Source: Desmodus rotundus (Eukaryota > Chordata > Mammalia > Chiroptera > Phyllostomidae). Taken from it: DNA of 64,000 bases. Position 1 is the first letter of the stretch. The number at the start of each line of letters is the position of its first letter. The DNA lies in assembly GCF_022682495.2 (NCBI RefSeq), contig NW_026527292.1, positions 1 to 64,000 of the forward strand, given 5' to 3'. Below are positions 5,834 through 61,987 of the stretch, piece by piece. Position numbers and translations under genes: made by a program. A model generated the notes under the pieces. That model searched no databases. It saw nothing but the letters and a program-made list of their open reading frames with translations, and was not told the DNA's origin.

Positions 5834-5850
5834 GCTGCCATCTCTTGTTC
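5834..5850 (-). promoter_or_regulatory. Degraded CTCF-like motif
   Basis: The + strand reads GCTGCCATCTCTTGTTC. Its complement scores 12/15 against CCASYAGRKGGCRSY by hand count; the CCAC end is lost. The flanking GGGAATAACACC module is intact, so this is a decayed member of the array. Confidence 0.35.
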
Positions 5851-6283
5851 ATTTTGGGAATAACACCTTAGTGCCAGTCAACAAGAAAGGTGGTTGATTG
5901 TGGTGGAATGTCAATGATTGTTGATGGCAATGGTATTTAGAAATGTATTTTAAAATGTCTAAATGTATGGACTGTCTAGTTACCTTGTGACTGGTTTCCA
6001 GAATAGGACAAAGGAAGCAATAAACGTGTTTTATGTGCCATTTGTTGGACTTGCTGTATAATATAAGAGTCAGGTTTTTAGAAGTTCCAAGTGTGCTTGA
6101 AAATCATTTGTAATTTGCTTTGTTCGTTGCGGCTTCCTGAAATAATGAAGAAAGTAAAATCTATTTAAAATAAATTTTAACCCAAGAGGCTAAAAAAAAA
6201 ATAAAGCCACTATCATTTTATAAGTAAAAACCAAACGAACCCTTTGGCCAAGCCACTAATGAGAGTCCCAAGTGTGCATCTCT

Positions 6284-6300
6284 GCTGCCATCTCGTGGGA
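6284..6300 (-). promoter_or_regulatory. CTCF-like motif
   Basis: The + strand reads GCTGCCATCTCGTGGGA. The reverse complement matches the CTCF core consensus at 14/15; only the fifth position differs (G instead of C/T). AGATGGC within it also resembles a YY1 core. It is 450 bases from the preceding copy, and the same spacing recurs at 29,681/30,132. Confidence 0.6.
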
Positions 6301-8099
6301 ATTGTTGGGAATAACATCTTAGCACAGGTCAGCAGGAAAAGTGGTTGATTATAGTGGAATATCAGTGAGTGTTGATTTTTTTTAAGACTGTTCGGTGGTA
6401 CAAGTCTCAGGTCCTAATGTAAGTGACCAGTTCCTTGGGACCACTTTTTATGAGCACATGATATTGACAAAACACTGGAATTGGGAGTGCACCATGGGTT
6501 CTTTTATTTGATTATATCTTTAAATTATTCTTTGTCTATAGAAAAGATATTTATTTCTACATGTTATTTATCACACAATTTACTAAGTTGTATTATTTAT
6601 AATAACTTTAAGTTGATAATCATGAGTTGTCAAGGTAAATAAGATATCATGCAATAATAAAATTACGTTAGTTTAGTTGTATAAAACATGAAAAAATAGT
6701 TAAAGCTTGGAATAAAACATGAAGACATGAACAGGTAAAATGTGTTAGTTATAAGTTCATTAGTAATTAAATAATATAGTAAAATGAATCTTAGCATCAT
6801 AAATGAGTTCAGGGCCTGGAGCAACGGTGTTCTAGAAATCAGAAGTATTTTGTAAGTAAAATTGTGCCCCCTGTAGGTTATCTGAGGAACTCACAATATG
6901 GCAAATGTCCACATTTTCAAAGAGAACGTTTGATGGTGAATTCTAGAATCTAAAAGAGTAAGATTATAGATTCTAAGTTATGTTAAGAAACAATTATTGA
7001 AGAGTGATTTACGGGCAATGAAAAGAGACAGTGAGCCTCAGTGCTGTGGTTTATCATATGTGGTTCAGTCTCTTAAGGTGCCATATCTTCCTTGGCTTCT
7101 GATCTTTTGCAGGTGTTTTCTTAGCTGAGGACATTTGTTCCCAGTCTTTGCAAGACAGCTAGCTGGCATTGTTATTTTTGTTGTTGTTCTTAGCTCTCAG
7201 CCTCCAGGCTGCCTGTCCAGAGAGAGGCGTGATTTCAGATCCAGGGTGCAAAGTCACATGCTGTTTGTATTCTAATGGACTCTTCATCCTGCTCCATACA
7301 GAGGAGGGTTTCTCATGGCTATGGATAATTCTTTCTCCTGGGAGATTTTTCTCTGCATTGTAGGTGCTTATTAGCAGTCCTTACCTCTGTTCAGTGCATG
7401 CCAATAACTCCCACCTTAACCCCACCCTAAGGACAGTCTGAAAGGTGTCCACACAACGTGCCAAATGTCCCCTTGGGGGGAAAGTCAACCTCAGGTGAAA
7501 ACCACTGATCTTGAAGCTGGATCATCTTTGGAACCTGAGTGATCTGGCCTTGGTAAGAAGTATTTTCACTATCAACCACGCAAATTATTTTCTAACTCCA
7601 ATTGTGATTTATTTTGGGGTGGTTATTTAGAAGTGTATTTCATAATTTGTAAATATAAGTACTTTCTAGCTATCTGTGTTACTGATTTCTTGATTAATGG
7701 CAGTGATAGGAAGAAATAGATATAATTCTAAATAAATGTCAGTCCTTTGAAGTTCGTTGGAACTTGCTTTATATCACAATATGGTCAGTTTTTAAAAAAA
7801 TTCCCAGGGTTCTTGGAAAGCATCTGGGGCATATTTGCATTTTGGGGGTGTAGTGAAGTACTTATGCACATTGAATGCAATTTGCTTCTCATGTTATTTT
7901 ATTTTACTATTTTTTGTGGGTTGTATTGGTTCTGAAACAGAACCTGAATGATAGAGGCTTGTTAAATCTGTTACTATGATTATTATTTTGTATATTTGTC
8001 CATGTAGCTCTGTTGTATATAATTTTGAGTTTATGTTATTAAGTGAATAAAAATGTGGAACTAACTGGTGGATTAAACTTACTGATACGAAGTACTCCT

Positions 8100-8940
8100 C
8101 TTTATTTGTAGTAGTGGGGTTTTTTTGCCTTCAAGTCTACTATAGGTTACATAATTTTTATTTATTAATGAAAGTATAGTATACTTTTCCCATTCTTTCA
8201 CTGTAGATCTTTTTGCATGTTTCAGATAGCTTTCAGTGTTTTATATTAGTTATGAGTGGCTATTAAAATCAATTAAAGAATTGATTTTGGTGGAGGATGT
8301 CATGTAGGGGGCCCAATATTTTTCCCATTCAGTTGTTCCAACACCTGTTATTATATCACAAACATTTTCCCACAAGTCTAAGGAGACATCTTTGTCATAG
8401 AAAATTTCCATCTGATTTTGCATTTATTAACTTTGTATTTTGTCCCATCAATTTGTCTATTCAAAGGCCATTACCCCACTGTTTAGATTAATGTAGGTTT
8501 ATAACACAATACACAGTTATGTTTGTTTGGGCTAGGTTCTATTTATTAATTTGCTCTTCCATAATTTCCTTTCCTCATTTTAACAAGTGAGCTGAAAATG
8601 AGAATGTTTTAGTTTTAAAATGTTGATATTTTAAACTGTATCACATTCAATGTATAAGCCACTTTGGGAAATTGACATTCTTACGTTTTTTATCGAAGAA
8701 CACGATGTTGCTTTCCAGTTGTCAAGCGTCTTTCATTGGGCATCATTGTAACATTTGTCCACACGGATCATGCACATTCTTGCTGAGGTTGGCGTTAGGT
8801 GTTTTATCTGTTTTGTTGCTATTGGTTCTTTTCGATTCTGTCTTTAACTTACTGTTTCTATATACAGAGAAAGGACGTTTATTATCTGTGTGTTATTTCC
8901 CCTCACTGTAATAAATTCCATTACTTGTAATCATTGTGTT
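8100..8940 (-). mobile_element. Ancient LINE-1 fragment, antisense
   Basis: Sequence around 8,295 (GATGTCATGTAGGGGGCCCA) and 8,440-8,500 (CCCATCAATTTGTCTATTC, then ACTGTTTAGATTAATGTAGG) resembles the antisense of the L1 ORF2 3' region. It is heavily diverged with no open frame. Shortened equivalents occur at 31,975-32,283 and 49,490-49,782, so the insertion predates array duplication. Confidence 0.6.
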
Positions 8941-9250: not shown

Positions 9251-9267
9251 GCTGCCATCTAGTGCAC
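9251..9267 (-). promoter_or_regulatory. CTCF-like motif, copy-1-specific
   Basis: The + strand reads GCTGCCATCTAGTGCAC; the complement matches 14/15, with only the first C changed. It lies in the 8,400-9,340 segment absent from X copies 2 and 3, so it has no counterpart there. Confidence 0.5.
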
Positions 9268-14026: not shown

Positions 14027-15685
14027 ATGGCATTTTTTTGTTCTTTAACTTTTAGCTTCCATGCTTCCTGTTCCAAGAAAGGCAGCATTTCAGACATAGG
14101 ATGCAGATGGACATGCTGTTTGTATTCTAAGGGACTCTTCAGGATACAGAGCAGGGTTTGTCACTCTCAGCACTGTGGAACTTTTTGGCCACATAATTCA
14201 TTCTCCTGGGGCATGGTCCTCTGCATTGTAGGTGCTTATAAGCATCCTGTACCTCTATTCACTGCCCACACCCTGGCTTCCCTTCCCCTCAGGAAAGTCT
14301 AAAATGGCTCAGCACATAGCCTAAAGCCCCCTTGGGGGCAGAAATCACCTTTGGTTGAGAACCACTGAGTTTGAAGCCTTTATCATTTTGGAAAACAGAA
14401 CTTGCTCTGGTATGCAGTCGTTTTATTATTTTTCTATGTTAATTATTTTCCAACTCTGACTGTGATTAATTTTGAACAGTTATTTAAAAGTGTATTTTAA
14501 AACATGTAAATGTAGGGACTTTCTAGTTACCTTGTGACTGGTTTCCAAATGAATGGCAAAGAGAGCAATAAACATACTTTATGAGACATTTGTTGGAACC
14601 TGCTTTCTAGCTTAATATAGTCAGTTTTAAAAATGTTCCAAGTGTGCTTGAAAAGCGTTTGTAACTTATTTTTTTGTTGCCGCTTACTTAAACAATGAGA
14701 AAAAATTTATTCAAAATTGTACACCAAGAGTTAAAAAGAAACTGCTAATGACAGGGGACTCAAGAGTTGGAAAATATTAGTTTAAGGTTAAAAGTTATAA
14801 GCCTAGCAAGTAATGTATATGTTAAAGGTTTTGTTTCAGAAACTACAGATAAGGCCTGTCCTGGCTCCTGGAAAACAGCTGACGTCCTGGGGCACTGGTA
14901 AAGATTACCCCCTGGAGAGAAGTTGGAGGCATCCAGACCTTTGTGTTCCAGGGAGAGACCCAAGGGACACAGTCAAGAGGAAAGGCACCCTGGGGTGGGG
15001 GGAGATGGAGACCCTCTCGGGCCAGAATCCAGCTGCTGAGTGGGCCTGGTGGCTGAGCCTCATGGGGCGGGGCTGCCAGCAGGCCTGAGGGCCAGGGAGG
15101 GGACAGCGCCAGCTGGTGTGGCCCCTGCTGTGGTTTTGCTCTTGTGGGAGCCGGGCTGTCTGTTTAGCTCCTTCTGTTCTCTGGCTTCCTGGAGAAGAAG
15201 AACCTATTCCCTGGCTGCTGGGTCCTGCAGCAGCCCCTGACCCTGGCAGGAGCAGCCTGCTCACAAGGACTTGGCTGCGATGATTTGGGGGAGGAGTGAA
15301 TTTTCTGGACCCCCTGCAGCCACATGAGCAGCTCCTCCATGTGAGGCTGGGGACGGTGGGCAGTTGTGCCTCCAACCAGATGGGCTCATCTGAACCAAAG
15401 ACCCCAGGGGAGCAGACGAGGGCCATGGGGTCAGGTTGGCAAATGCGTCAGTCACACCATGGCCAGCCCCCTCCTCACTGGCCCTCGAGCTCGGGGTCCC
15501 CGGGGCCTGAGGGGGGGGAGGCATGGGCATGGGCACCACACACTTGTGAGGTACAGGGAAGGGCCCCCCCAGAATCCCTGCTGCCGCCACCTTGACTTCT
15601 TGACCCTTGACTTCTCTCTGGAAATGATGACGGTCCCCCGCTGTTCTGGCCCCTCTCACCTACTCAGGGAGCAGGCAGAGCTGTT

Positions 15686-21387: not shown

Positions 21388-21570
21388 TTGGGTTGGCCAA
21401 AGGCTAAAACCTTTTGGGAAGATGGAATTATGAATATGCCTGCAATATTGCAGAAAGCAGTGGAACAAAACTGTGAATACATTGTTCAGTACAGTTATTG
21501 GTGAAAACGAAAAACGTCTGTTCCTTTGCGTCTTTACATAAAAACTGGATGAACCTTTTGGCCAAGCAAA
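21388..21570 (+). mobile_element. Internally deleted mariner, MITE-like
   Basis: The 5' terminal repeat (TTGGGTTGGCCAAAGGCTAA) is joined almost directly to the last part of a mariner transposase region (CTTTTGGGAAGATGGAATTATG) and the 3' terminal repeat (GAACCTTTTGGCCAAGC). It is flanked by TA and is 183 bases long. A near-identical derivative occupies the same place in a unit at 55,653-55,833. Confidence 0.8.
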
Positions 21571-21598
21571 TAGTACAGTGTTCCAAGAGTGCATCTCT

Positions 21599-21615
21599 GC
21601 TGCCATCTCGTGGGA
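21599..21615 (-). promoter_or_regulatory. CTCF-like motif
   Basis: The + strand reads GCTGCCATCTCGTGGGA; complement 14/15 to the CTCF core, with a CpG inside the core. It lies 28 bases past the mariner derivative's 3' end. Confidence 0.6.
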
Positions 21616-22357
21616 ATTCTGGGGAATGACATCTTAGTTGAGTCAGGAAAAGTGGTTGATTCCAGTGGAATATCAATGACTGTTGATGGCAGTGGTATTT
21701 AGAAGTGCACTTCAAAACATCTAAGTGTAAGTACTTTCCAGTTACCTCGAGACTGGTTTCCAGAGTAATGGCCAAGGAACAATAAACGTGATTTATGTGA
21801 CATTGTTGGAACTGGCTTTATAGTGTAATCAAGTTGTTAAAACTTGCAGGTGTGCTTCAAAATCACTTGTCATTGGCTTTGTGTGTTGCAGCTTCCTTAA
21901 ACAACGTGGAGGGAAAATTTATTCATAATTTTGCACTAAGAGGTACAAGAAAAAAAGAGTAAAATATAAGCGCCATCGTTGTATGTATGTGCCCTTCTGG
22001 ACATGTCTACAGGCTCGTTTCCTCCACTCTGCCTGGACTTTGTTTACCATTTCAGATTCCTTGTATGGGCGCAAAGCTTGTGCATTTTAAGCCTCTGTTT
22101 CTAATGTGTGCATTCAAGGGTGAGAATTTCTTTCTCAGGTTTTGGTCCGTAGCATCTTTAGCATCATTCAGGTCAAATTACTTTGTAATTCAAATAGTGT
22201 TCATTTTGGAGGTTCTGCCGGAGTCTATCTGGGAAGGTCTGTACAGCAGAACTTTGTCCTCATCCATTCCCTGTGAGGGCTAGGTCAAGTGCCATTAGAG
22301 CAGAAAACATATTGTATAGGCTTTCGAGGCTGTGATGATGGTTGAAACTTGCTTTAA

Positions 22358-23660: not shown

Positions 23661-23684
23661 TATGTGTTCCAAATGCTGGTCTTT

Positions 23685-23701
23685 GCTGCCATCTTGTGGC
23701 C
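23685..23701 (-). promoter_or_regulatory. CTCF-like motif
   Basis: The + strand reads GCTGCCATCTTGTGGCC; complement 14/15. The usual CpG has become TG, consistent with deamination. Confidence 0.6.
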
Positions 23702-24169
23702 ATTATGAGGAATGACACCTCAGTACAATTCAGCAGGATAAGTGGTTGATTCCAGGGGAATATGAATGACTTTGGATAGCAGGGGTATTCAGAAGTGCGT
23801 TTGAAAATGTCTAAATGTCAGGGCTGGCCAGTTACCTTGTCACTGGATTCCAGATTAACAGCCAAGAGCGCAATAAGCATATTTTCTGTGACATTTCTTG
23901 GATCTGGCTGTGTAGCGTGATAGAGTCGGGTTTCTACAAGTTCCAGGTATGCTTGAAAATCACGTGTAATTTGGTTTGTCTTATGCAGAATCCGTAAACA
24001 ACGAGGAGGAAAATTTATTTAAAGTTCTCTACGAAGAGGTAAGAACAAGTGAAGAAAAATACAAGCACTTTCACTTTTTTTATATCCCCCTGTGGACATG
24101 TGTACCGGCTCGTTTACTCAACTTTGCCTAGAGTGCGTTTACTATTTTAGGGTCCTCGTTCGGGTAAAA

Positions 24170-24245
24170 AGCGAAGGAACCTTTGTGGGACGCCAATTGT
24201 AGAGCGTGTCTTCCAACTGACGGTCTCTGCTGCCACCTTTTGGCC
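24170..24245 (+). mobile_element. Mariner 3'-end remnant next to a CTCF-like core
   Basis: GGGTAAAAAGCGAAGGAACC is a mariner 3' terminal region joined directly to body sequence, so nearly the entire element has been deleted in this unit. At 24,229-24,245 the + strand reads GCTGCCACCTTTTGGCC; its complement scores 13/15 against the CTCF core. This is the only unit in array I with such a short spacing (544 bases) to the previous core. Confidence 0.6.
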
Positions 24246-25385: not shown

Positions 25386-25404
25386 GTTCCAAATGTGCAT
25401 ATCT

Positions 25405-46238: not shown

Positions 46239-47531
46239 CCAGGTTGGCCCAAAAGTAAGTACGGCCACCCACCACACTTTTGCCATCCTGCCCCTTCATG
46301 TGACTCTGGATTGCATACTTGTCTTTAACTTCATGGGAAACTGTTTTTTTGGAGTGTATCATGACAGATGTCATACCAGCATGCGTTTCAATAAAAAACT
46401 CATCAAAACCATTGATTGATGTTGTGGCCATTTTCAACCTGAAGATGGCTGAACATAAGGAACAGTTTTGGCACATTAGGCTCTGTCATTTCAAGAAAGG
46501 TGAAAGCACATCTGGAATGCCAAAATAAAGATTTGTAGTGTGTACGTTAGGTGATGAAATGTGTCGAAGTGATTTGCAAAGTTTCACGCCTAAGATTTCT
46601 CACACAGAGGTGCCCCACGGGCATGGCAGACCAGTAGCAGTTCACGGCCATCGAGTCCAGACCTTACCTGAGGACAGACCAGGTTATGCCATGTGGGAGA
46701 CGGGTGACATACTCAAAGTATCCAAACTGAGCACTGAAAATCATTTGCACCTGCATGATTACGTGAATCGCTTTGAAGTTTGGGTTTCACACATATTGAA
46801 GGGATGGGGGGGGGGAGACCTTCTTGACCTCATTCCCACATGCGGTTTTCTAGTGAAACCTAAGGAAACTGTTCTGCTTGCAAGCAAATTGCTAGGGGCG
46901 TATGAACTGTTAAACTTTGAGAATAATATGGAACAGGAGAGATAGTGTGCAAATGAAGGAACTACCACCAGCAGCTCCTCCACAGGGCGGTCTTCATCCA
47001 GAGCAGGTGATGTTGCCTATGTGGTGATAACAGAGCAAGTTCTGTAGGAGGTGCTTCTTGGGGTAATTCGCAACATGTGCTGCCCCATCACTGCAAGACC
47101 AACTGCATGCACTTCCTGTTGACAGAGTCGAAGGAGAAGACGGGGAAGCTTCAGGATGAGGTGGGAGCGCACGTTTCTGTTTGGTGACCAGTGAGAAACG
47201 GTTCCAGCCTGGCCGCGCAGCCGTGATTCATCAGCAGTACTCACCAGAAATTGCACCTTTGCATGGACATTTAGTTCAGTATTCCGAATTTCTCAGTGGA
47301 GAGAAATTTCCGTTCTGTGGAAGACTGCAGAAGGCACCTGGAAGAGCTGTGCTGCTAAAGGTAACAGTGCTGTGGGACGATGGAATGGGAAGTTGTCTGA
47401 AAGATGGCAGAGGCCAGTGGCAAGGAATGGCGATGACGTTGTGCAGTTATAATTTGGGAGGAAAAAGAAAAGTGTGCCCGTCGTTGCATTTTACCGTAAA
47501 CAGCTAAGGAACCTTTCAGCCAAGGCTTTGG
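46239..47531 (+). mobile_element. Dead mariner M5
   Basis: It begins CCAGGTTGGCCCAAAAGTAA and ends near AACCTTTCAGCCAAGGC. The transposase is readable in pieces: HKEQFWHIRLCHFKKGEST (about 46,454), DILKVSKLSTENHLHLHDY (46,710-46,765), RFEVWV, then LQDEVGAHVSVW (about 47,150) and YSPEIAPLHGHL (about 47,240). The GDEKW block is deleted and the third catalytic Asp is His. Several frameshifts are present. Confidence 0.85.
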
Positions 47532-47560
47532 TTCGATACGCATTGTATCTGTCGGTTTCT

Positions 47561-47577
47561 GCTGCCGTCTCGTGGCC
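47561..47577 (-). promoter_or_regulatory. CTCF-like motif
   Basis: The + strand reads GCTGCCGTCTCGTGGCC; complement 13/15. It has a second CpG compared with the equivalent site at 27,502. Confidence 0.5.
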
Positions 47578-48155
47578 GTTTTGGGGAATGACTCCTTAGT
47601 GCATGTCAGCAGGAAAAGGGGTTGATTCCAGTGGGAATCCCTTTGACTTTTCATAGTAGTGTAATTTAGAAGCTCAGTTGAAGACGTCTAAATGTCAGGA
47701 TTGTGTAGTTACTTTGCAACTGGTCTCCAGATATCGGCCGAGGGAGCAATAAATGTATTTTCTGTGACGTTTTTTGGAACTGGCTTTGTAGCGTATTGGA
47801 GGCAGGTTTTTACAAGTGCCAAGTGTGCTTGAAAATCGTTTGTAATTTTCTTTTTCCATCGGAGTTTCTTTAAATAACATGGAGGTCAAATTTATTTGAA
47901 ATTGTCCACCGAGAGGTAAAAAAAAGTAAAGTAAAATACAAGCGCTCTCATTTTGTGTACGTGCCCCCAAGGACATATCTACGGGCTCGTTTCCTCCACT
48001 TTGCCTGGACTTGGTTTACTATTTTAGGTTCCTCCCACAGGTGCAAAACTTGTGCATTTCCAGCTTCTGTGTCTGACCTGTGCATTCAAGGGTAAAGATT
48101 TCTTTCTCAAGTTTTCATACAGAGCATCTTTGCCATCAGTCTTGTCGAGTTATTT

Positions 48156-48915: not shown

Positions 48916-49078
48916 TGTGTGGTTTTACTATTATTCCATGCAAATTATTTTCTAAATCCAATTGTGATTTATTTTGGGGTGGTCATTTAGAAGTGTATTT
49001 CGTAATTTGTAAATGTAAGTACTTTCTAGTTATCTCTTGTTACTGATTTCTTGATTAATGGCAGTGAGAGCAAGAAAT

Positions 49079-49119
49079 ATGTGTGTGTGTGTATATACAC
49101 ACACACACACACAAACACA
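49079..49119. repeat. GT/AC palindromic microsatellite
   Basis: (GT)6-ATAT-(AC)6 at 49,081-49,108 is a perfect 28-base palindrome, extended by further AC repeats. The paralogue near 7,715 is ordinary AT-rich sequence, so it expanded in this copy only. Confidence 0.85.
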
Positions 49120-49489
49120 TTTCAGTCCTTTAAAATTTGTTGGAACTTGCTTTATGTTACAATATGGTCAGTTTTTATAAACGTCTGCATGGTACTTGGA
49201 AAGCATCTGTAATCTGCAGTTTTGAGGTGTAGTGAAGTACTTGTGCACATTGAATGCAATTTGCTTCTCATGTTTTTTAAAAAATATTTTTTACTATATT
49301 TTTGTGGGCTTCATTGGTTCTGAAACAGAGAGAGTTTTGGTAAATCTCCTATAATGATTATTAGTCTATTTTTCTTTGTAGCTCTGTTCTATATAATTTT
49401 GAATTTATGTTATTAAGTGAATAAAAATTTAAAAGTAACTGATAAATTGAACTTACTGATATGAAGTACTCCTTTTTATATGTAGTGGG

Positions 49490-49782
49490 GTTTTGGGTTT
49501 TTTTTTGCCTCCAAGTCTACTATATGTGATATCATTTTGATTTGGTTAATGTTCGTGTACTATATTTTCCCCATTCTTTCACTTTAGATCTCTTGGTATG
49601 TTTCAGATAGCTCTGTTTTATGTTAGTTATGAGTGGATGGTAAAATCAATTAAAGAATTGATCTTGGTGGAGGATGTCATGTAGGGGGCCCAATAATTTT
49701 CCCGTTCAGTGGTTCCAGCACCTTGTATTATATCACAAATATTTTCCCACATATGTAAGGAGATATTTTTATCATAGAAAAT
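49490..49782 (-). mobile_element. Ancient LINE-1 fragment, antisense (X copy 3)
   Basis: Counterpart of 8,100-8,400 and 31,975-32,283, with GATGTCATGTAGGGGGCCCA at about 49,673. Non-coding. Confidence 0.55.
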
Positions 49783-50250
49783 AACCACGGCACCTCACAT
49801 CATCGCTGTCTCATTTATGCTCTTCTGTGTGTGGGGTTTCTGACTCTCTCCTGTAAGTGATATTCTCCCGCCTATGCATATCTTACATTTGGCCATTTTC
49901 ATTTGCTAACCTGTGTCCTACCTGTTGGATTATTAGACCAGCCCAAAGATAGTTGAGGTCACAGGAAAGGTTGTTTCCCCACCAGGTAAGCAAGCAGTCA
50001 GGTGTTTAATATGAGGTGAATTTGGGGAGTACATGTACGTCACCATTTACTTAAGGAAGATGTAACAATTTAAGTAAAGTAACTTATTCTCAGAACAGAA
50101 TGGTTATATCAGTGAAATATGGAACAATGTTCTAAGGTAGCTTGTGGATATACAACTTGTATTTGAAGTTTCAAAGGTGACAATGAAGAGGGCTAACATT
50201 TTGCACTTGGCACGTTGATTTTAAACTGGCTGTTAAGGAAGGGAAGGCTT

Positions 50251-50311
50251 AGCTTTGCGCAGTGGCAGTATCGTAGCCAATGAGGTTTATCTGAGGCGCG
50301 ATTATTGCTAA
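50251..50311 (+). pseudogene. Truncated U4 snRNA retrocopy
   Basis: The first 61 or so bases of spliceosomal U4 snRNA are present: AGCTTTGCGCAGTGGCAGTA, TCGTAGCCAATGAGG, GAGGCGCGATTATTGCTAA. There is one difference from the usual mammalian sequence (TTTATCTGAGG for TTTATCCGAGG). The rest of U4, including the Sm site, is absent. A near-perfect 15-base target duplication (AAGGAAGGGAAGGCT at 50,235; AAGAAAGGGAAGACT at 50,312) brackets it. Paralogues at 9,780 and 32,737 carry only one such sequence. No snRNA promoter element is present, so it is not a functional RNA gene. Confidence 0.93.
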
Positions 50312-51044
50312 AAGAAAGGGAAGACTGAGAAATTGCTTAGGATTGTCATCTCATTTCTTCCTAAGAGGTTTAGTTGCCACAGTTTGGTTTAGGAAGAGAG
50401 CTTCAGCACCATCACCTCAGCTTCAGACAGTGACACTCCTAGCAAGAGCCTGTTGACCCTCTTACCGTCTCCTCGTGTCTTAAAGTTTTGGGAGTTGCCG
50501 AACAGAAATCAACCTGCCAGGTATGCTGGCTTTTTTCCTAAATTAGCTGCATGTCCCCCATTTCACCATTGAAATCTAAGACTCTGTTCTTCCATATTCC
50601 AAAATACCCTATATACCCAATATCACCTCAATTTATTTGGTATTCATTTGAATGTGAATTCCCCTTGTCCATGTATTAGACATTGAATACCTCCCATTAA
50701 TCAGATTAATTTGATTTGATTGTCATCTTAGCTGTGAGAATGTAGAAGGTATGATAAAAAATAATTTTTTAATCCCCACAGGTTTGGTTATCCAGCCATG
50801 TGACGTTCATGGCCGGGACAGTAACTTCTGGAAAGTGTAGTCTCTGAGAGATCATGGGCATCTCCTGGCGAAAGTAAGCATTATTATTATTTTTTGCTCC
50901 GTTGGCCTTTTTGGTCTATTTCTGCAGGGCTTGGTATAATTTAGTAGTGCTGGGAGTTATTTTCTTCTCTTGTATACTTACATTGGCATGAAAACCTGTT
51001 TCTGAGGCCAGCTGCTTGGAGTTAGAGATTCAGGAATGTTTTTT

Positions 51045-51530
51045 ATGGGCTTCTGGCTCTGTTTACATTGTGAGGACTCGGTTCTGCTCCTGCATCTGGC
51101 AACTGGGCTTCATTGTCCAGATGTAACCCTGGAGTGTGGCTGTGGGGTCCTGGTTACAGATCTGGGTTCTGTTTCCTGGGTCTGTGGCCTGAGGTTGAAT
51201 CTGTGTGTCTGGGATCTGGAGTCTCTTATGGTGTGGCTCCATGTCCTGAGTTGGTGTTTGTTGTTGATGTTGGTGCAGCTCTGGCTCTAGGGTCTGATGT
51301 ATGGAACCTGGTGTCCAGGGTTCCCTGTCAGTGTCTGGTGTTGAGTGTCTGGCATTCAGGGTCCATGATCTGACCTGGGTTGTAGGGACGGTTTTGGGAT
51401 TGGGGCCGGGGTGTGGGGTTCAGCTTTTGGTTCTGGGTCTGCTCCGGGGTCCAGGTTTGGACCCAAGGGCCTGTGTTCTGTCCTGAGTCTGTCTGTGGCA
51501 TCTGGCATCTGTGAAGTGATGGTCATTGGC
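51045..51530. repeat. GT-rich degenerate block, X copy 3
   Basis: Reiterated GGGTCTGTGG/GTGTCTGG words as in the other copies. Short open frames on both strands follow from base bias. Confidence 0.75.
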
Positions 51531-51965
51531 TCCAATTCAATGCCAGCAGGAGTTCCGGAGTTGGGGTGTGGGGAAGAAGGAAACGTTATGTAGTGCAAAT
51601 AGCTCCGTTTTGAAAGTAATGGTTGTGAGTGCAGCAAGGCTGTTAGGAAGCTCGGTATTGTTCCAGGTGAATCATAAGGCAGCACCTCTGTGGGTTAGCC
51701 CAATGGTGCTGCTGCTTAGTTGTGAAAGCACCATGGTTGTGAGGGGGCCCTGAAGTGAGGCAGCCCCGGGGCAAGTTCCCCCTCACCCTGTGCTGCTCAG
51801 CGTTTCTCTGCTCTTTCTGGTCTGGTCCTGTCATTTCCTCTCTGCTCGGCTGCATTTGCAAACAAAGAAACGCACATTGGAAAAAGGGTCCCTCCTAGTG
51901 AGGAGATCGGGCTGGGTGAGCAGAGAAAAGGCCTCTGGTGTTGTCACCAGAGCTGTGTAGGTTAT
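51525..51965. repeat. Conserved tail block, X copy 3
   Basis: Matches 10,985-11,430 and 34,830-35,260, with GAGGCAGCCCCGGGGCAAG at about 51,757. Confidence 0.75.
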
Positions 51966-52003
51966 TTTTATTCTTAAATTATGCCAAGTTTTCCTCTTTT
52001 ACC

Positions 52004-52010
52004 TTCTCTC

Positions 52011-52047
<37 letters not shown>
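52004..52047. repeat. (CT)n microsatellite
   Basis: About 44 bases of CT with a single CCT interruption. Copies 1 and 2 have only a short pyrimidine-rich run at the equivalent place (11,460 and 35,295). Confidence 0.9.
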
Positions 52048-52565
52048 TTACCCAAACTGAGACTGCCTTTTTTTGTGGCAGCTTACTTAAATTATAGAGA
52101 AAAATAAAAATTAATTCAAAATACTACCCAAACAGGTAACAACTGCTATTGTTTTAACTATATACCCTTCCAGACATCTCTCCTTGCCTATTTCCATTCT
52201 TCTACTTTCTCTGGATTTAATTTATTTTTCTGGGTTTGTAATATGGATACAGAACATGTGAATTTCCAACTGTTTCCCACTAATGTGCAGATTTGTCACT
52301 GTGTTTTCACATACATTTTTAATGCATTATTTTAAATACTCAGTTGGAATGATTTTTAAACTTCAATTGTGATTCATTTTGAGGGATATTTAGAAGTGTA
52401 TTTCATATCTTGTAAGTGTAAGAATTTTCTGGTGACATTTACAACTGACTTCTAAATTATCTACAGTGAGAGCGAGAAACTTCATGTAATTTCAATGCTT
52501 GGAAATTTTTTTAAAACTTCATTACAATATGGTCAATGTAAAAAACGTTGTAAGCATGCATCTCT

Positions 52566-52582
52566 GCTGCCATCTCGTGGTC
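52566..52582 (-). promoter_or_regulatory. CTCF-like motif
   Basis: The + strand reads GCTGCCATCTCGTGGTC; complement 14/15. Identical to 35,824 in the same X context. Confidence 0.6.
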
Positions 52583-52941
52583 ATTTTGGGAATAACACCT
52601 CAGGGCCGGCCAGCAGGAAAAGCTGTGTATAGTCGGTTATCTGTGAATGTTGAACGTAATTTGCTGCTCATGGTGTTTCTCATATTTTCATTGAATTTTT
52701 TGAGGTGGTCTCTTGTTTCTGAAAGAGGAATGCTGTATTCCTGATGAGATAGGTTTGTTAAATCTATTAGGATTATAAATTTTTGTTTGTGTCTGTGTTG
52801 TATATAATTTAAGTTTATGATATTAAGTACAAGGTGAATTTGGATCTTCCGGGTAAGTACTCATCCTCTGTAGTCATGCTTTTTACCTCGAAGTCTACTG
52901 CATGTTATTATGTAATTTTCATGTGGTTTATGTTTCTGTAA

Positions 52942-53062
52942 TACAGGGTGGGCAAAAGCAGGTTTAGAGAGACCAAGCTTAATGTTGCCTTATTATTTAA
53001 TAATTATGATGTTTTTTTCCATGTGAACAACTGTAAAGCTGCTTTTGCAGCATCCTGTGTAT
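52942..53062 (+). mobile_element. Mariner-type MITE, copy 3
   Basis: TACAGGGTGGGCAAAAGCAG to GCATCCTGTGTA; about 10 bases shorter than copy 2 because of an internal deletion. Confidence 0.75.
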
Positions 53063-53289
53063 CTGTTCCCATTCTTTCACTTTCAATCTTCTTTCACCCT
53101 ATGGTTTAGGTAATTGACATGTTCTTCCAGTTTGTGTCTTGTCTTTTTATTGTCTGAACAAGTTCTTTTTCAGAGTTGTCCTTAATTTTATAAAGTACAT
53201 ACTATTAATGTATTTCTTCATTAAACAGCATGTTCACAGGTATACTTGATTCCTGGCTGTTTTGGTTGAAATGGCCCACTAAAAATGAA

Positions 53290-53660
53290 AGCTACAGATG
53301 AGGGGCGGGGCCTGTCTGAGGTCAGAGGCAGGACTGGGCTGGAGGTGAGAGGGGGCCGCAGATGTGGGTGGGGCTTGGTGGGAGGCAAATTTAGGCTGAG
53401 GGGCGTGAGGGGCTCGCAATTCTGGTGGAGATGAGCAAGCACGCGCTGGAAGTTAGGTGCTGCGGGCTGCCGGTGGCTGCTGGTCGCCGTGGTCCCGAGG
53501 TGTTGTTCACAGCCTAAGCTGATGCAAGCAACGCAATCCAGGGACAGGAGCTGAGCTGCGTAGGGGCTATGAGGTGAGGGGGGTTGGGAGGTAGATACAG
53601 CCACCCTATGGGGAGCAGAAAAGGGGGCCAGACTGTTGTTTCTGGGGTACATGTCTCAGG
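53290..53660. repeat. GC-rich segment with GC box, X copy 3
   Basis: GGGGCGGGGC at 53,302-53,311 is unchanged from copies 1 and 2, while surrounding sequence has small deletions (near 53,352) and substitutions. Confidence 0.5.
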
Positions 53661-54020
53661 TCCCAATTTAGCTGACCACTTCTTGTGGGACCACTTTTCT
53701 ATATTTATCTAGAGTATATTTCAGTTATAGATAACTTTGGTCTATGGATAAACAATGATACCCATTTTTAACCCAAAAAGAAGATGATATTTTCCATTTG
53801 CTAAAGTTTCTGTTATTGGGTAGCAATTTTCAATTTCATTCATACAGATCCTGTATGTCGTTGTTAAGTTTATTCCCAGGTTGTTGTTTTTTTTACCTGT
53901 TTTTTAAAGTCGTTTTAAAAAATTATATATTTAATTTACTATTTCTACATATTTATTTCTGCATGTTATTTTCACATCACTGCACTAAATTCTATTTGTG
54001 ATTCTTTTTCGTCAATTCTC
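53650..54020 (-). mobile_element. Ancient LINE-1 fragment, antisense (X copy 3)
   Basis: CATACAGATCCTGTATGTCG and TTAAGTTTATTCCCAGG correspond to 13,270-13,300. Non-coding. Confidence 0.5.
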
Positions 54021-55652
54021 ATGAGTTACGAAGGTAAACATGCTCTCATGCAATAATGATCGTTAAATGGTTGTAGCTGTAGGTGACTTAGAAATAGTTA
54101 AAGCCTGAAAGAACACAGGAAGTGAGGTAATGTGAGGAGACAGAAAAATTTTCTTTGTTAGTCATACATACTCAATAAAATAGTAACATCCTTCTTAGCA
54201 TTTTAAATGAGTTTGGGGCCTGGAAGCATGGTGTTGTAGAAATCAGAAGTATTTTGTTACAGGGAATGTGCCCCGGGGAGGTAATCTGAGGAACACAGAG
54301 TGTGGCAAATGTCCACATTTTCAAAGAGGAAAACTTGAGATGGTGAAATGTGGAATCTAACAGAGTAAGAATCTTTGTTCTAAGTGATATTATGAAGAAG
54401 TTATTACAGTGACATAGGAGCAGTGGAGAGAAGCAGGGATCCTCAAATGAGTACTGTGTTTAATCACAGTGTGATTTGGTCTCCTAAGTGGACGGGTCTT
54501 CCTTTGCCTCCCGATCTATTTTCTAGGACACTTCTCCCCGACATTTGTCAGATGGCTGGCCTTTTTTATTCTTTAACTTTTAGCTTCCATGCTTCCTGTT
54601 CCAAGAAAGGCAGCATTTCAGACGTAGGATGCAAAGGGACATGCTGTTTGTATTCTAATGGAGTCTTTAGGATACAGAACAGGGTTTGTCATTGTCAGCA
54701 CTATGGACCTTTTGGCGCCACATAAATCCTTCTCCTGGGTGATTGTCCTCTGCATTGTAGGTGCTTATTAGCATCCATGACCTCTATTCACTGCCCACAC
54801 CCTGGCTTCCCTTCCTCTCAGGACAATCTAGGATGACTCAGCACATTGCCTCAAGCCCCCTTGGGGGCAAAAGTCACCTTTGGTTAAGAAACAATTTGAG
54901 GCTTTTATCATTTTTGACAGCAGAAAGATCTTGGTTTGGTATGTAGGGTTTTTATTATTTTTCTACGTAAATTATTTTCCAGTCTGTGATTTATTTTGGG
55001 AAGGTATTTAGAAGTGTGTTTTAAAACATCTAAATACAGGGACTTTCTAGTTACCTTGTGACTGGTTTCCAGATCAATGGCAAAGAGAGCAATAAATAGT
55101 TTGTGAGACATTTGTTGAAACCTGGATTATAGCTCACTGTAGTTGTTTTTTTAAAAAAGTTCCAAGTGTGGTTGAAAAGCATTTTTAATTGACTTTGTTG
55201 GTGCTTACTTTAACAGCAAGGAAAAAAATTTTCAAAATACTACCCCAAGAGTTAAAAAGAAGTGCTTTCATTTTATGTATATACACTTGCAGATATGTCA
55301 ATGTGCACATTTCTGTTTACTTTTCTAGATTTTATTTACTATTTTAGATTCTTAGTATGGGCACAAATGTTGTATATCTTCAGCTTTTATATTTGATAAT
55401 GTGTATTTAAGGGTGAAGATGTTTTCCATAAGTCTTGGTATGCAGTATCTTTATCACCATTCAGTTTATTTTGTAATTGAAATTGTGCTTTATTTCTGAG
55501 GTTGTTGAGGAGTGTATTCCCTAACTACCCAACGTAAGGACTTTCCAGTCACCCATTTGTAGTGAATTCTAGCTTCAGTGCAATAGGAGCACTCAGAGAA
55601 ACACGTTGTATATAATTTCATTGCTGCAATGCTGGTTGAAACTGGCTTTGTA

Positions 55653-55833
55653 TCGGCTTGGCCAAAAGATAAAAAGTTTTAGGAAGATGGAATTATGAAG
55701 ATTCCTGAATGATTGCAGAATAGTGGGACAAAATGGTGAATACGTTCTTCAATGACATTACTGGTGAAAACGAAAAACGTCTCTTTCTTTGTGTCTTTAC
55801 CTAAAAATCGAATGAACCTTTCGGCCAAGCAAA
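55653..55833 (+). mobile_element. Internally deleted mariner, MITE-like
   Basis: Same architecture as 21,388-21,570: CGGCTTGGCCAAAAGATAAA fused to TTTTAGGAAGATGGAATTATG and ending TGAACCTTTCGGCCAAGC. The shared deletion points show one ancestral deletion event. Confidence 0.8.
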
Positions 55834-55859
55834 TAGTAGTGTTCCAAGTGTGCATCTCT

Positions 55860-55876
55860 GTTGCCCTCTAGTGGGC
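55860..55876 (-). promoter_or_regulatory. CTCF-like motif
   Basis: The + strand reads GTTGCCCTCTAGTGGGC; complement CCACTAGAGGGCAAC scores 14/15, with a C/T-consistent fifth position unlike most others. Confidence 0.6.
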
Positions 55877-56148
55877 ATTTCAGGAATAACATGTTAGTGG
55901 CAGGTGAGCAGGAAAAGTGGTTGAGTGTAGTTAGAACATCAATGAATGTTGACTGCAATGTTACTGAGACGTGAATTTAGTTACTTTTAAGTATCAGGCC
56001 TTACTAGTTACCTTTTGTTCCTGATTTCTATATTAACAGCAGCGACAGAAAGAAACATACCGTATACAATTTCAGCCCTTTGAAATTTGTTAAAACTCGC
56101 CTTTGCACAGGATGGTCCCTTTGAAAATTGTCCCAAGTGTGTCTCTCT

Positions 56149-56165
56149 GCTGCCATCTCATGTGT
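56149..56165 (-). promoter_or_regulatory. Degraded CTCF-like motif
   Basis: The + strand reads GCTGCCATCTCATGTGT; complement 12/15, CCAC end lost. Equivalent to 9,251 in a diverged X copy. Confidence 0.3.
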
Positions 56166-56169
56166 CAGG

Positions 56170-57480
56170 TGAGATGACAAATCTCATCATCCCACCGGTG
56201 TGGCCGTGGCTCGCCTCTCAGTTGTGGCTTCGGGGTCACGTGCCTTGCACTCGCGGGACCCTCTGCCCTCTGCTGGCTGCAGGCAGAGGAGGATGGTCGG
56301 CATTGCACTGGACAAGGACAGTCAGTCCTCTGACCCCCTGTGCACAGTGCAAGGCCCTGCTGGCAGGCGGTCGCTCTCTCAGGCCATGTCTGCTGCTGTT
56401 GCCACAAGATTTAACAAGTTTAGCAAAGTAACCTCTTCTGAACTGAGTGATCACAGTCATGAAATTTGGAAGAGTTTATTAGTTTACCTTGTGGTGAGTA
56501 GTTTGTAGGATTGCCTCCCAAAAAGTCACATTCCACGAATGCTGCACTTTTCATCAATTACCTATCACCCATTTTACCTCTATAAGACCCTGTTTCCCCA
56601 TCCTCCCAAATGTCCTTTATTCCTGCTATCACTTCATTGTCTGGTCTTCGTTTGTGCTTATGCATATATGAAATGTGGAATATCCTGTATTGATCAGATT
56701 ATGTTATTTTGATTATTATCCCACATGTGTTAGAGCCGACAAGGTTTGAGGAAAATAATTGCTTTTTAATCCCCCACAGTTTTGAAAAATTGCCGGTGAG
56801 GAATGAACGGCGAGACAATGCTAACTCCTGAACCTGTTGGAAGTGAGAGATCATGGACGTCTGCCCTGCAAGGTCAGCATCCTTTTTGTTCGCTCTGTCT
56901 TTTGGCCTATCAGTGCTTGGTTTGGTAAAAGGTTGAAGTTTGCATTTGGAGAGACGTGGGTTTTATCTTATTGAATGGCAGCGTTGTTTACAATGGGAGG
57001 ATCCGGTTCAGCTTCTGCCTGTGGCCTCTGGCAACCGGGGCCCGGTGTCTGGCCCCAACTCCAAATTCTGGCCATGGCATCCTGGTTATAGATCTGCATC
57101 CTGTGTCCAGGGCCTGTGCTTCAGAGTCAAAATGCATTCAGTTGTGTGTCTGCAGTCTCGCACCTCTTAGGTTGTGGCTCTGTGTCCTGGGCTCGCATGT
57201 GAGGTCCACGTGCAGATGAAGCTTTTGGTTTTGGTGTGTGGAGTCTGGCATTAAGGGTTTCATGTCAGTTCTTGGCATCTGGTGTTTGGCCTTCAGACTT
57301 CACGGTCTGGCTCGGTTGAGGGCACACGGCTCTGAGTTTGGGGCTTTGGGCCTGGAGTGCTGGTTGTTTTGGGTCTGCTCCAGGGTCCAGGTTTCAGAGT
57401 CAAAGGTCTGGGTCCAGGATCCTGACTTTGGCTCTAGTGACTGGTGTCTGTCAACGGATGATCATTGTGTTCAATGCAAT
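56170..57480. repeat. Diverged partial X copy 4
   Basis: GTTTAGCAAAGTAACCTCTT with CTGAACTGAGTGATCACAGT parallels 9,610-9,660. A GT-rich block (57,000-57,470) parallels 10,530. It is more diverged than copies 1-3. Frames of up to 114 codons occur, none recognisable. Confidence 0.65.
56262..56278 (-). promoter_or_regulatory. CTCF-like motif outside the usual module
   Basis: The + strand reads TCTGCCCTCTGCTGGCT; complement CCAGCAGAGGGCAGA scores 14/15. The flanks lack the U-module words, so it may be an independent site. Confidence 0.5.
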
Positions 57481-59177: not shown

Positions 59178-59213
<36 letters not shown>

Positions 59214-59848
59214 CATGAATCTCTGCTATTTGAGAATCATGTGGAATGGGAGAGACGGTGGACAAAGGAAGGAACTACCACTCGCCCCTCCAAAGGCCGG
59301 TCTTTGTGCAAAGGATATGATGATGGCCTTGTGGTGGATTCTGGAGGGAGTCCTGCAGTAGGAGCTCGTTTCAGAAAGCCAGCAGGTTCCTGGCTACACG
59401 TATCGTTCCCCATCATACTATGAAAGCTCCTCCCGAAGGAAAGAGTCTGGAATTTGTCAGCAGAAGATGCGCAAGGTTAGGATTAGGTGAGAGAGCACAT
59501 TTCTCTTTGGTGACCAGGGAAAACTCTTCTGCAGTCCTGATTCCTCCTTAGTACTCAGAGACTGTGCTCTTTCTCATGGCCATTTAGTTTGCGTCTCTGA
59601 ATTTTTCTTTATGGAGAGAAATTTGCATTCCCTGGAAGACTGCATCAGACAGCTGGAAGAGTTCTCTGCTCCAAAAGAGAACCATGTTGTGGGACGACGG
59701 AATGGTGAAATCACAAGAATGTGGCAGAGGGTAGTGAAAGAAAACGGTGAAGACATCGTGCAGTTATGTTGTGGGGGGATAATGAAAAGCATGCCCGTCA
59801 TTGCATCTTGGGGCAAAAAGGCAAGGACCCTTTCAGCCAGGCCATTAG
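58831..59848 (+). mobile_element. Dead mariner M6, 5' end replaced by SINE
   Basis: The 5' terminal repeat and first 280 or so bases are missing. The relic reads on through GACGGAATGTGTCAGAAGTG (HTH end), a linker with WTFGLH, KREENVPF, a GT microsatellite, then the C-terminal part with MERNLHSLEDCIRQLEEF (59,611 onward). A 224-codon open frame (58,687-59,361) spans SINE plus mariner but is a composite accident. The catalytic blocks are disrupted. Confidence 0.8.
59181..59211. repeat. (GT)n microsatellite inside mariner M6
   Basis: About 15 uninterrupted TG repeats lie where other mariner copies have ordinary sequence after CCATTTCCA. They keep the frame open as alternating Val-Cys codons. 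Confidence 0.95.
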
Positions 59849-59877
59849 TAGGCTATGCGTTCCATCTCTTGGTATCT

Positions 59878-59894
59878 GCTGCCCTCTCGTGGTC
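59878..59894 (-). promoter_or_regulatory. CTCF-like motif
   Basis: The + strand reads GCTGCCCTCTCGTGGTC; complement 14/15 with GAGGGCAGC. Confidence 0.6.
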
Positions 59895-60639
59895 ATTTTC
59901 GGGAATGACACCCTAGTGCAGGGCTGCAGGAAAAGTGGTCAAACCCAGTGGAGAATCAGTGACTTTTCATGACAGTGGTATTTACACGTGCATTTGAAAA
60001 TGTCCCAATGTCAGCTCTGTCCAATTACCTTGTGACCCGTCTCCAGATTTCCATCCAGGGACCAATAATCGGGTTTTATGTGACATTTTCAGATCTCGCT
60101 GTGTAGCGCAATAGATTCAGATTTCTACAAGTGTTAAGTGTGCCAGAAATTCATCTGTCATTTGCTTTGTCCATTGCAGCTTCTTTAAACAATGCACAGG
60201 TACAGTTTACTTAAAATTGTCCACCAAGAGGTAAAAAAAAATAAAGTAAAATACCCGTGCTTGTATTTTATGTCTATGCCCTTCCGGATGTGTCTATAGA
60301 CTCATTTCCTTCCGTTTGCCTGGAGTTTGTTTAGTACTTCAGGTTCCTCATAAGGGTGCACAATGTGTACATTTCCAGCTTCTGTTTCTAACCTGAACAT
60401 TTAAGAATAAAGACTTCTTTCTCAAGTTTTGGTACGGAGCATGTTCACTATCCTTCAGGTCAAGTTATTTTGTCATTCCAATGGTGGTTCACTTCAGAGG
60501 TTCAGTAGGAGTCCATTTCATAAGTTCGGAAGGACAGAACCTTCTAGTCATCCATTCTCAGTGAATGGCAGCCTAAGTGCTATGAGGTCCAAGAACATAG
60601 GATTTCGATGCTCTGAGGCTGGTTGAATATTGCATGAAA

Positions 60640-61945
60640 TGGGCGTGGCCACAAAGTTTTTGTGCCCCCACCCCTGCCTGTCAAGTGACTCCGGTCCCAT
60701 GTAGTTGTGTTTAATGTTCTTTGAAGCCATTATTTTAGAATCTTTTGTGACACTTGTCGTATATGCTTGTGTGTAAAAAAACTCATCCAAACTGGTGAAT
60801 ATGTGTGTGTCCATTTTCACACTGAAGATGGATGACTGTAAGCTATGTTTTTGGCACGTTAGGCTCTGTCACGTCCAGAAAGGTAGAAGCACAACTGTAA
60901 GGGAAAAAAGCTCTGTGGTGTGCATGGAGTAGGCGCTGTGAAGGATGGCACGTGTCAGAAGCGGATTGCCAAGTGTCATGCCGGAGGTTCCTCGTGTGCA
61001 GTTGCTCCACGGGTGTAGCGCCCCAGGTGCAGTGGAGAGCCATAAAGGACAGACGTTCACTGAGGACAGATCATGTTGTGACAGCAGGGAGACAGGCAAT
61101 GTACAGAAAGCATCCTAATCAGACTTTGAAAATCGTTTGCACCAGCTGTGTTACATTATCCCTTTGACTTTTTTGTTCCACAGAAGTTAAGCGGGGTGGT
61201 GGGGGTTGCTTCTTGACCACATATCCACATGGATTTCTCCGGTGAACCATAAGGGATCTGGTCAGTTTTCAGGTGAAATCGTGAGTAGGGGATGGGTCAT
61301 TGCTGTGTTAGAATAACATGGAACGGGAGAGATTGTGGGGAAAGAAAGGAACCACCACTCGCCCCGCCAAAGGGCGGTGTCCATCCAAAGGAGGTCAGGT
61401 CATTTATGTGGTGGGATATCGAGGGAGTCCCGCAGAAGGAGTTCCATGTGGAAAACTAGCAGGTGACTGGCAACAGGTACCATTCCCCATCAGATCAACC
61501 TAAAGGTCAACCAAAGGGAAATAGTCCAGAATTTGTCAGCAGAAGACATGTAAGCCTCAGATAAGGTGAGAGCGTACGTTTCTGTTTGGTGACCTGGAAA
61601 AAACGGTTCCATCCTGGCCGCACAGTGGTGATTCATCCGCAGTGCTCACTATACCTTGCACCTTTGTACAGCTGTTTAGTTTGTGTCTCTGAATTTTTCT
61701 TTTTGGAGAGAAATTTCTATTCACTCCAAGAATGCAGAAGGCACAGAGAAGAGTTCTGTGATCGGCAAGAGAACAATCTCGTGTGGTGATGGAACGGTGA
61801 AGTTGCCTGTAAGGTGGCAGAGGGCAGCGGAACAGAACAGTGACGACTTTGTGCAGTCACGTTGTTTGGGGAAAATGAAAAGTGTGCGTGTGATTGTACG
61901 TCACGGTAAAAAGCCAAGGAACCTTCCATCCCAGCCCTTCCTGGC
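60640..61945 (+). mobile_element. Dead mariner M7
   Basis: It starts near GGGCGTGGCCACAAAG and ends near AACCTTCCATCCCAGCCC. Pieces of transposase include MERERLWGKKGTTTRPAKGR (61,318) and a C-terminal EISIHSKNAEGTEK region (about 61,710). Both terminal repeats are strongly diverged. Frameshifts and stops throughout. Confidence 0.8.
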
Positions 61946-61970
61946 ATATGCATCTCCTGTGTTAGTGTCT

Positions 61971-61987
61971 GCTGCCATCTGGTGGCC
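61971..61987 (-). promoter_or_regulatory. CTCF-like motif, full consensus match
   Basis: The + strand reads GCTGCCATCTGGTGGCC; complement GGCCACCAGATGGCAGC matches 15/15, with TGG flanking upstream as in the long consensus. It is the strongest candidate in the window. Confidence 0.75.

Follow-up and report, generated by a model that had tools for sequence, protein, structure and literature searches.

Features of the window

The window, by which we mean the whole 64-kb stretch of Desmodus rotundus DNA that was analyzed, is the first 64 kb of C155, a contig of 82.5 kb that terminates in ~14 kb of degenerate TTAGGG/GGCTATGG repeat with the G-rich strand toward its right end. A preliminary description had listed 18 CTCF-like motifs in the window, and all 18 were found at their positions (Table 1), each on the + strand for the core as written, with GCTGCCNTCTNNTGG being exact at 11 of them. 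When up to two mismatches were allowed, GCTGCCNTCTNNTGG matched the window 20 times versus 6.4 times expected, the maximum over 100 shuffles being 15. A scan of both strands with the CTCF matrix MA0139.1 against shuffled-type controls, which the same description had proposed as a check, gave more matches than Markov controls on the − strand: there were 18 matches on the − strand and one on the + strand at p<1e-5, compared with means of 0.75 and 1.0 for the two strands and maxima of 3 and 4 in 20 Markov controls, and 11 matches on the − strand and none on the + strand at p<1e-6. The matrix scores reached p<1e-5 at 15 of the 18 sites and p<1e-4 at 17, the weak sites being 5834, 29681 and 56149, and three further − strand matches were identified at 6862, 11698 and 41212. 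The claim that every site points the same way is correct for the 18 sites but not for the window as a whole, which also has a + strand match (p<1e-5) at 38916. Beyond the window the array continues, with more matrix matches on C155 at 64096 and ~67140. A GC-rich control made of seven other contig starts (70 kb) gave 12 matches on the + strand and 14 on the − strand at p<1e-5, which per kb (26 in 70 kb) equals the window, and it is only at p<1e-6 that the window exceeds this control (11 versus 1). Together, the motif search and the matrix scan support co-oriented, predicted CTCF-type sites within a repeat.

Table 1. Motif sites, module copies and duplicated blocks of the window.
Feature	Positions	Strand	Remarks
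Motifs 5834 (weak, p 1.5e-5) and 6284 (p 1.3e-6)	5834..6298	−	Module copies 5811-6200 and 6246-6442
Long direct duplication	5768-19487 vs 29606-44749	+	88-92% identity, in pieces
Motif 9251 (p 1.4e-6)	9251..9265	−	Outside the module copies of the profile
Module copy without CTCF part (example)	14479..14740	+	Model 144-408
Three full module copies, motifs 21599, 23685 and 24229	21560..24596	−	Best p 2.1e-8
Two full module copies, motifs 25405 (p 3.0e-8) and 27502 (p 4.6e-8)	25366..27869	−	
Module copies, motifs 29681 (weak, p 8e-5) and 30132 (p 1.8e-7)	29658..30223	−	
Lone short CTCF unit, motif 35824 (p 1.0e-7)	35796..35912	−	
Full module copy, motif 47561 (p 1.5e-6)	47518..47930	−	
Further partial copy of the long duplicated block	48919..55261	+	81-92% identity, in pieces
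Lone short CTCF unit, motif 52566 (p 1.0e-7)	52538..52659	−	
Module copy with motif 55860 (p 2.3e-7), then motifs 56149 (weak) and 56262 (p 7.9e-8)	55823..56276	−	Last two outside the copies of the profile
Two full module copies, motifs 59878 (p 5.0e-8) and 61971 (p 1.8e-9)	59835..62339	−	61971 is the best of the window

Letters near 290-440 and 1550-1700 of the window are presumably LINE-1- and SINE-like. A search for two patterns typical of bat SINEs gave no match. A cluster of snoRNAs or other RNAs was rejected, as Rfam at the gathering threshold returned a single U4 match and ARAGORN no tRNA. A protein-coding array was likewise rejected, with Pfam searches of 10 of the 19 ORFs yielding LINE-1 ORF1 domains in one and sub-threshold matches only in the others.

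Repeat structure and its possible origins

The motifs do lie in a repeat, as the preliminary description had it, but not in a simple tandem one, which was ruled out by TRF (periods to 500) finding no array over the modules. Self-comparison instead revealed nested duplications, among them blocks at 25.8-28.9 and 45.9-48.9 kb that are 88% identical to each other and ~2.1-kb units that are mostly 66-75% identical. Inside copies of one module lie 15 of the 18 motif sites, those at 9251, 56149 and 56262 being outside every copy found by its profile. The module consists of a CTCF unit of ~140 bp, often fused to a second piece, and 8 of the 23 copies that the profile found in the window start at model position 123-144. 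That all 23 copies share one strand, amid nested duplications of 66-92% identity, favors an explanation in which the motifs are passengers, carried by a subtelomeric duplication that spread through exchange between ends, with their orientation inherited and any CTCF binding functionless. We regard this explanation as unlikely, although of the alternatives it deserves the most weight, and return to it below with the conservation data.

SINEs have spread CTCF sites in other mammals, and the module could in principle have moved as a mobile element. Some of the DNA beside the modules does resemble antisense LINE-1 ORF2, scoring, with an ORF2 query, 120 at 7560-7850 (shuffle maximum 44) and 72 at 5760-6210 (shuffle maximum 46). 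However, two modules of the 2.1-kb units failed the same comparison, at 38 and 33 versus maxima of 42 and 45, and the places of the array in the genome are terminal rather than dispersed, such that dispersal by a transposon is very improbable.

Placement of the array at chromosome ends

The genome comprises 2.12 Gb, with 14 chromosome-size contigs (C1-C14, 28 ends) and one further contig of 6.2 Mb. The junction between array and telomere on C155 corresponds to the left end of C2 at 89-91% identity, and a junction marker adjoins telomere-type repeat at both. The motif 18-mer had 185 matches in the genome and its reversed control none. Among the 163 places listed on C1-C15, 132 are no more than 300 kb from an end of one of the contigs C1-C14 and 31 are beyond that distance from any such end; by these listed places the array is represented on 23 of the 28 ends, autosomes included. 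Of the 132 listed terminal places, 113 are directed inward and 19 outward. Around 24 copies of the junction marker, 110 of 123 nearby places are directed away from the telomere and 13 are opposite, while within 25 kb of the markers this direction applies to all 36 places; the sites are mostly tens of kilobases from the telomere tract. With the matrix (p<1e-5), the segment 50-100 kb from the left end of C5 had 13 inward sites and one outward. Two ends go against the inward rule, namely C8 right, with one inward place and two outward ones, and C12 left, where both places are outward. The array family is thus a subtelomeric repeat found at most chromosome ends, with its motifs mostly directed away from the telomere. 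In the literature searched, we found no account of it.

These placements bear directly on the proposal of the preliminary description that the array anchors an X-chromosome superloop, as DXZ4, ICCE and FIRRE do. Those loci are also local repeats with many CTCF sites, each unit of human DXZ4 and of cat repeat A having one reverse-direction site (PMC6985041, PMC4820808, PMC8662614, PMC3491370), and many co-oriented CTCF-type motifs within a repeat are what such an anchor would present. They are, however, as described there, single X-linked loci, whereas the module occurs at both arms of many chromosomes, on autosome ends as well as the probable X, and adjoins the telomere tract; because C155 ends in telomere-like repeat, we consider it to be a chromosome end and not a superloop anchor. 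The 185 genome matches and the placement at the ends of many chromosomes do not correspond to one X-linked locus as for DXZ4 (downstream of PLS3), nor does this placement fit ICCE, an X-linked repeat inside NBDY, or FIRRE, an X-linked lncRNA locus with R0 and RRD repeats. DXZ4 has been annotated by a conserved 34-bp CTCF signature with up to 13 mismatches allowed (PMC8662614); the 18 sites differ from it by 16 to 21 mismatches, and no place in the window matched within that published limit. A superloop anchor is therefore the most improbable of the explanations considered. From contig order and size, our guess is that C14 is the X and C15 the Y; C14 has the array at one end only, as autosomes do.

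Conservation of the core and upstream block

To measure retention, the module was searched with its motif masked and loci fetched through the motif were dropped. The CTCF core was kept at p<1e-4 in 36 of 37 motif-masked copies. At p<1e-5 it was present in 13 of 15 non-redundant copies, compared with a neutral mean of 4.9 and a maximum of 11 in 2000 runs of a model that assumes a star tree; the profile had been built from copies picked through the motif. A block upstream of the core has a conservation of 0.948 versus 0.806 elsewhere, and ATTCC is present 8 or 9 bp ahead of the core in 35 of the 37 copies. The core and the upstream block are retained better than the flanks predict, and both observations count against the motifs being passengers, although gene conversion could also keep copies similar.

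Reports on CTCF insulator sites describe an upstream motif ~7-10 bp before the core that is contacted by zinc fingers 9-11 (PMC12885311 and PMC5006368). The array resembles such core-plus-upstream sites in having a second conserved block at a comparable distance; the block, TGTYATTCC, agrees with the reported CAGCTGTTCC in place but matches its letters in part only.

A candidate subtelomeric boundary

We propose, at a probability of roughly 0.58, that the array is a one-way subtelomeric CTCF/cohesin boundary comparable in its action to the CTCF cluster of human TAR1, with binding and insulation being predicted from motifs and placement. CTCF and cohesin would bind the module sites. To judge by the direction of the motifs, read with published work on how it relates to the N-terminus (PMC12885311), CTCF on the array would turn its N-terminal side, with zinc fingers 1-3, toward the chromosome interior. 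Loop extrusion from the interior would then stop at the array before reaching the telomere, and the array would insulate the tip, meaning the telomere and any TERRA promoter. The block itself would have spread among ends by exchanges that preserve polarity. Marker and array shift together even in inverted blocks (C4 right, C1 left), as passenger motifs would. The ends are not independent tests of direction, since orientation within and between ends can come with the duplicated block, and orientation by itself could be passively inherited.

The likeness to TAR1 is based on placement and motif direction. A preprint on the human TAR1 sites (PMC13174434) reports that CTCF there points its N-terminus away from the telomere, calls the cluster a boundary and describes its effect for the terminal 10 kb. 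The array is similarly telomere-adjacent on most ends, with clustered sites and a predicted N-terminus away from the telomere, but it is longer, its sites continuing for tens of kilobases. For human ends, CTCF that faces inward has already been reported. A further possibility, which we hold more tentatively than the boundary itself, is that selection maintains a ~100-kb one-way CTCF wall at the ends of most chromosomes, each such end having numerous strong core-plus-upstream sites in DNA unrelated to human TAR1. If so, two mammalian lineages would have arrived independently at CTCF that faces away from the telomere, and stopping extrusion in one direction would belong to mammalian chromosome tips in general. 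The long same-facing array at most ends makes the need for a dedicated stop of cohesin loops at tips testable, and this bears on what separates telomeres from the chromosome interior: a boundary predicts altered end contacts and telomere transcription upon deletion or inversion of the array, whereas passenger motifs predict no change.

CTCF might instead mainly drive or shape transcription into the telomere, as a TERRA promoter element like those of the human 17p family, which we consider improbable. The human precedent (PMC5727389) supports such a role, as does a CTCF-type match ~1 kb from the telomere tract on both C155 (at 67139, p ~1e-5) and C2 (at 7166, p 2e-8). However, the majority of sites are tens of kilobases from the tract, where one promoter would not need them, and a loose CpG-island cut was passed by only three 500-bp windows of the 64 kb, at 19751-20500 and 62501-63000. 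The 17p-family sites are likewise subtelomeric, near telomere repeat and common to several ends via duplication, but according to that report they comprise two tandem motifs oriented towards the telomere, in contrast to the many single motifs directed away from it here. The direction given there for the 17p family counts, as a separate observation, against the boundary reading.

CTCF-type motifs and their strand bias

All of the 18 co-oriented CTCF-like motifs that the preliminary description placed at 5834..61987 were present with their core on the + strand (11 exactly), and the pattern, with up to two mismatches, had 20 matches in the window (expectation, 6.4; highest of 100 shuffles, 15). 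The CTCF matrix (JASPAR MA0139.1), scanned on both strands, gave 11 matches on the − strand and none on the + strand at p<1e-6, and 18 and one, respectively, at p<1e-5, a threshold at which Markov controls (n = 20) gave ~1 match per strand. Among the 18 sites, 15 scored p<1e-5 and 17 p<1e-4, with weak sites at 5834, 29681 and 56149. The single orientation claimed for the array held for these sites, but one p<1e-5 match, at 38916, is opposite.

The matrix was also applied without the motif pattern TCTGCTGCCATCTCGTGG (the 18-mer). It identified 13 inward matches (pointing away from the telomere) and one outward at p<1e-5 at 50–100 kb of the left end of contig C5, and six inward and none outward in a 10-kb stretch at the right end of C1 that was chosen for known nearby motifs. 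A control of 70 kb, mostly GC-rich and taken from the starts of seven further contigs, had 12 (+) and 14 (−) matches at 1e-5, and one (+) and none (−) at 1e-6. As the GC-rich control was as rich at 1e-5, match count alone is no mark of the array; strand bias and strong CTCF matches do set it apart from GC-rich DNA.

Structure and origin of the module

Self-comparison revealed nested duplications in the window (see table). The motifs do lie in duplicated units, as had been proposed, but TRF found no short-period array across them in the window. A profile of the module, the repeat unit with the predicted CTCF core on the − strand, located 23 window copies, every one on the same strand, that contain all but three of the 18 sites (9251, 56149 and 56262). 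Because eight of the 23 copies start at model position 123–144, hence without the CTCF part, and others have little beyond model 1–142, the module looks, from its sequence, like a composite of a ~140-bp CTCF unit and a second piece.

Features of the window
Feature	Position	Details
Duplication	5.8–19.5 kb vs 29.6–44.7 kb	88–92% identity, in pieces
Third, partial copy of duplicated block	48.9–55.3 kb	81–92%
Duplicated blocks	25.8–28.9 and 45.9–48.9 kb	88%
Repeat units, ~2.1 kb		mostly 66–75% identity
Module copies with little beyond model 1–142	30094–30223, 35796–35912, 52538–52659	
LINE-1 ORF1 open frame	3297–4127	276 aa, both L1 ORF1 domains
U4 snRNA (sole Rfam match)	50251–50318	just 68 bases
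Frame with a match to Mos1 transposase HTH	58687–59361	sub-threshold, E 0.044

Some modules adjoin DNA similar in sequence to antisense LINE-1 ORF2: scores of 120, 105, 86, 83, 72 and 59 were set against shuffle maxima of 44, 59, 48, 58, 46 and 45, respectively. Two modules of the 2.1-kb units failed this test (38 vs 42 and 33 vs 45), as did two GC-rich control stretches (20 vs 27 and 25 vs 35).

To follow the motif across copies, a motif-masked profile was made from ten copies, which biases it since they were picked via the motif; it had 67 matches in the DNA searched. Thirteen matches in eight motif-fetched loci were left out, and 37 of the other 54 cover the motif place. The CTCF match was kept in 36/37 of these at p<1e-4 and 32/37 at p<1e-5. 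In a non-redundant set of 15 copies, whose flanks have an average pairwise identity of 0.70, 13 kept it at p<1e-5, whereas a neutral star-tree simulation gave a mean of 4.9 and a maximum of 11 (2000 runs). Conservation in these copies was 0.911 in the core, a value reached by 1/364 other 15-mers, 0.948 in an upstream block and 0.806 elsewhere. Gene conversion could maintain such likeness of the copies. ATTCC precedes the core in 35/37 copies, by eight bases in 14 and nine in 21, and its block is mostly TGTTATTCC (16 copies) or TGTCATTCC (15 copies). According to one report, the motif of CTCF zinc fingers 9–11 resembles CAGCTGTTCC, lies ~7–10 bp upstream of the core and occurs in ~13% of CTCF sites, typically insulators (PMC12885311); the module's block fits it in position and partly in letters.

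Subtelomeric placement and orientation

The window is C155:1–64000 of an 82.5-kb contig that, from ~68.1 kb to its end, consists of degenerate TTAGGG/GGCTATGG repeat with the G-rich strand rightward, a polarity as at a right chromosome end, judged from sequence. Telomere-type repeat is on the opposite strand at the starts of C2, C5, C7, C8 and C11, and C155:66.0–68.4 kb is 89–91% identical to C2:8.4–5.9 kb.

The 18-mer had 185 matches in the genome and its reversed control none; split by the next base, 75/75 matches with T and 100/110 with other bases were listed, giving 175/185 located. Among these listed matches, 163 were on C1–C15 (C1–C14, 95–212 Mb; C15, 6.2 Mb), 132 of them ≤300 kb from a C1–C14 end, a zone comprising 0.4% of the genome, and 31 elsewhere; 23 of the 28 ends had a listed match within that distance. 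The 132 listed terminal places comprised 113 inward and 19 outward (p 2e-17, which, like other p-values here, overstates the evidence because places at the same end are not independent), and by majority of listed matches 21 ends were inward and two outward (C8 right and C12 left).

A 31-base marker adjoining the telomere tract had 25 matches with ≤3 mismatches, of which 24 were used; the other is interior (C3, 36.5 Mb, three mismatches). Of the 175 listed places, 123 lay on a marker's array side at a distance of ≤150 kb (110 directed away from the telomere, 13 towards), 52 were not near one, and none was ≤60 kb on the telomere side. Within 25 kb of a marker, 36/36 listed places pointed away from the telomere. 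By contig end, C4 right had 0/7 inward within 1 Mb and C1 left had three outward. The marker is inverted at C4:180914421 (−) and at C1:80390 (+), which faces C1:148146 (−), and relative to these inverted markers orientation agrees at 7/7 (C4) and 3/4 (C1) places. The sequence suggests that C1:1–150000 and C4:180914421–180980000 are inverted or misjoined end blocks of the assembly. Motif orientation can be passed on passively with a duplicated block.

Interior 18-mer places were seen at C6 93.57–93.62 Mb, C10 15.8–16.6 and 37.7–38.7 Mb, C12 52.5–52.6 Mb, C9 72.6 Mb and C15 1.34–1.37 Mb. They are possibly old telomere fusions or centromere-side copies, and the C15 group could be common to C14, if C15 is the Y and C14 the X.

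A predicted directional boundary

We consider it somewhat more probable than the contrary (about 0.6) that the array, with CTCF binding predicted, is a directional subtelomeric CTCF/cohesin boundary. The N-terminal (ZF3) side of CTCF is downstream of the core motif, according to PMC12885311, and here that side of the predicted bound protein would face the interior, such that cohesin arriving from there by loop extrusion would run into it and stall. In human cells, according to a preprint, the N-terminus points away from the telomere at nearly all accessible TAR1 CTCF sites, as predicted for the array, and these sites are termed a structural boundary (PMC13174434). In contrast to the array's inward motifs, human 17p-family motifs are described as facing the telomere end and as putative starts of TERRA (PMC5727389). 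Both C155 (67139, p about 1e-5) and C2 (7166, p 2e-8) have a CTCF-type match ~1 kb away from the telomere tract, so that for this single tract-proximal site a TERRA role is possible. Directly before the telomere tract, beyond the window, C155:67600–68080 is CpG-richer, with a splice-donor-like GTAAGG and parts nearly identical at C2; it is possibly the start of a telomere-directed transcript.

The literature on subtelomeres, CTCF, telomeres and bats, as partly surveyed, contained no such array in bat or of such length; human subtelomeric CTCF and TERRA work is already known from it. Deng 2012 and Stong 2014 are reportedly studies of human subtelomeric CTCF.

Other content of the window

Of 19 long ORFs found, ten were run against Pfam; one is the LINE-1 ORF1, and the other nine had no match above cut-off. 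This LINE-1 recurs inverted at 28158–29407 and 48202–48920. GC-rich duplicated blocks (16000–20000 and 38000–45000; GC up to 0.63, 88–91% identity) had tested ORFs without a Pfam match and mostly no CpG enrichment. The U4 match is likely a deleted pseudogene, and the frame with the sub-threshold Mos1 match is likely a mariner remnant.
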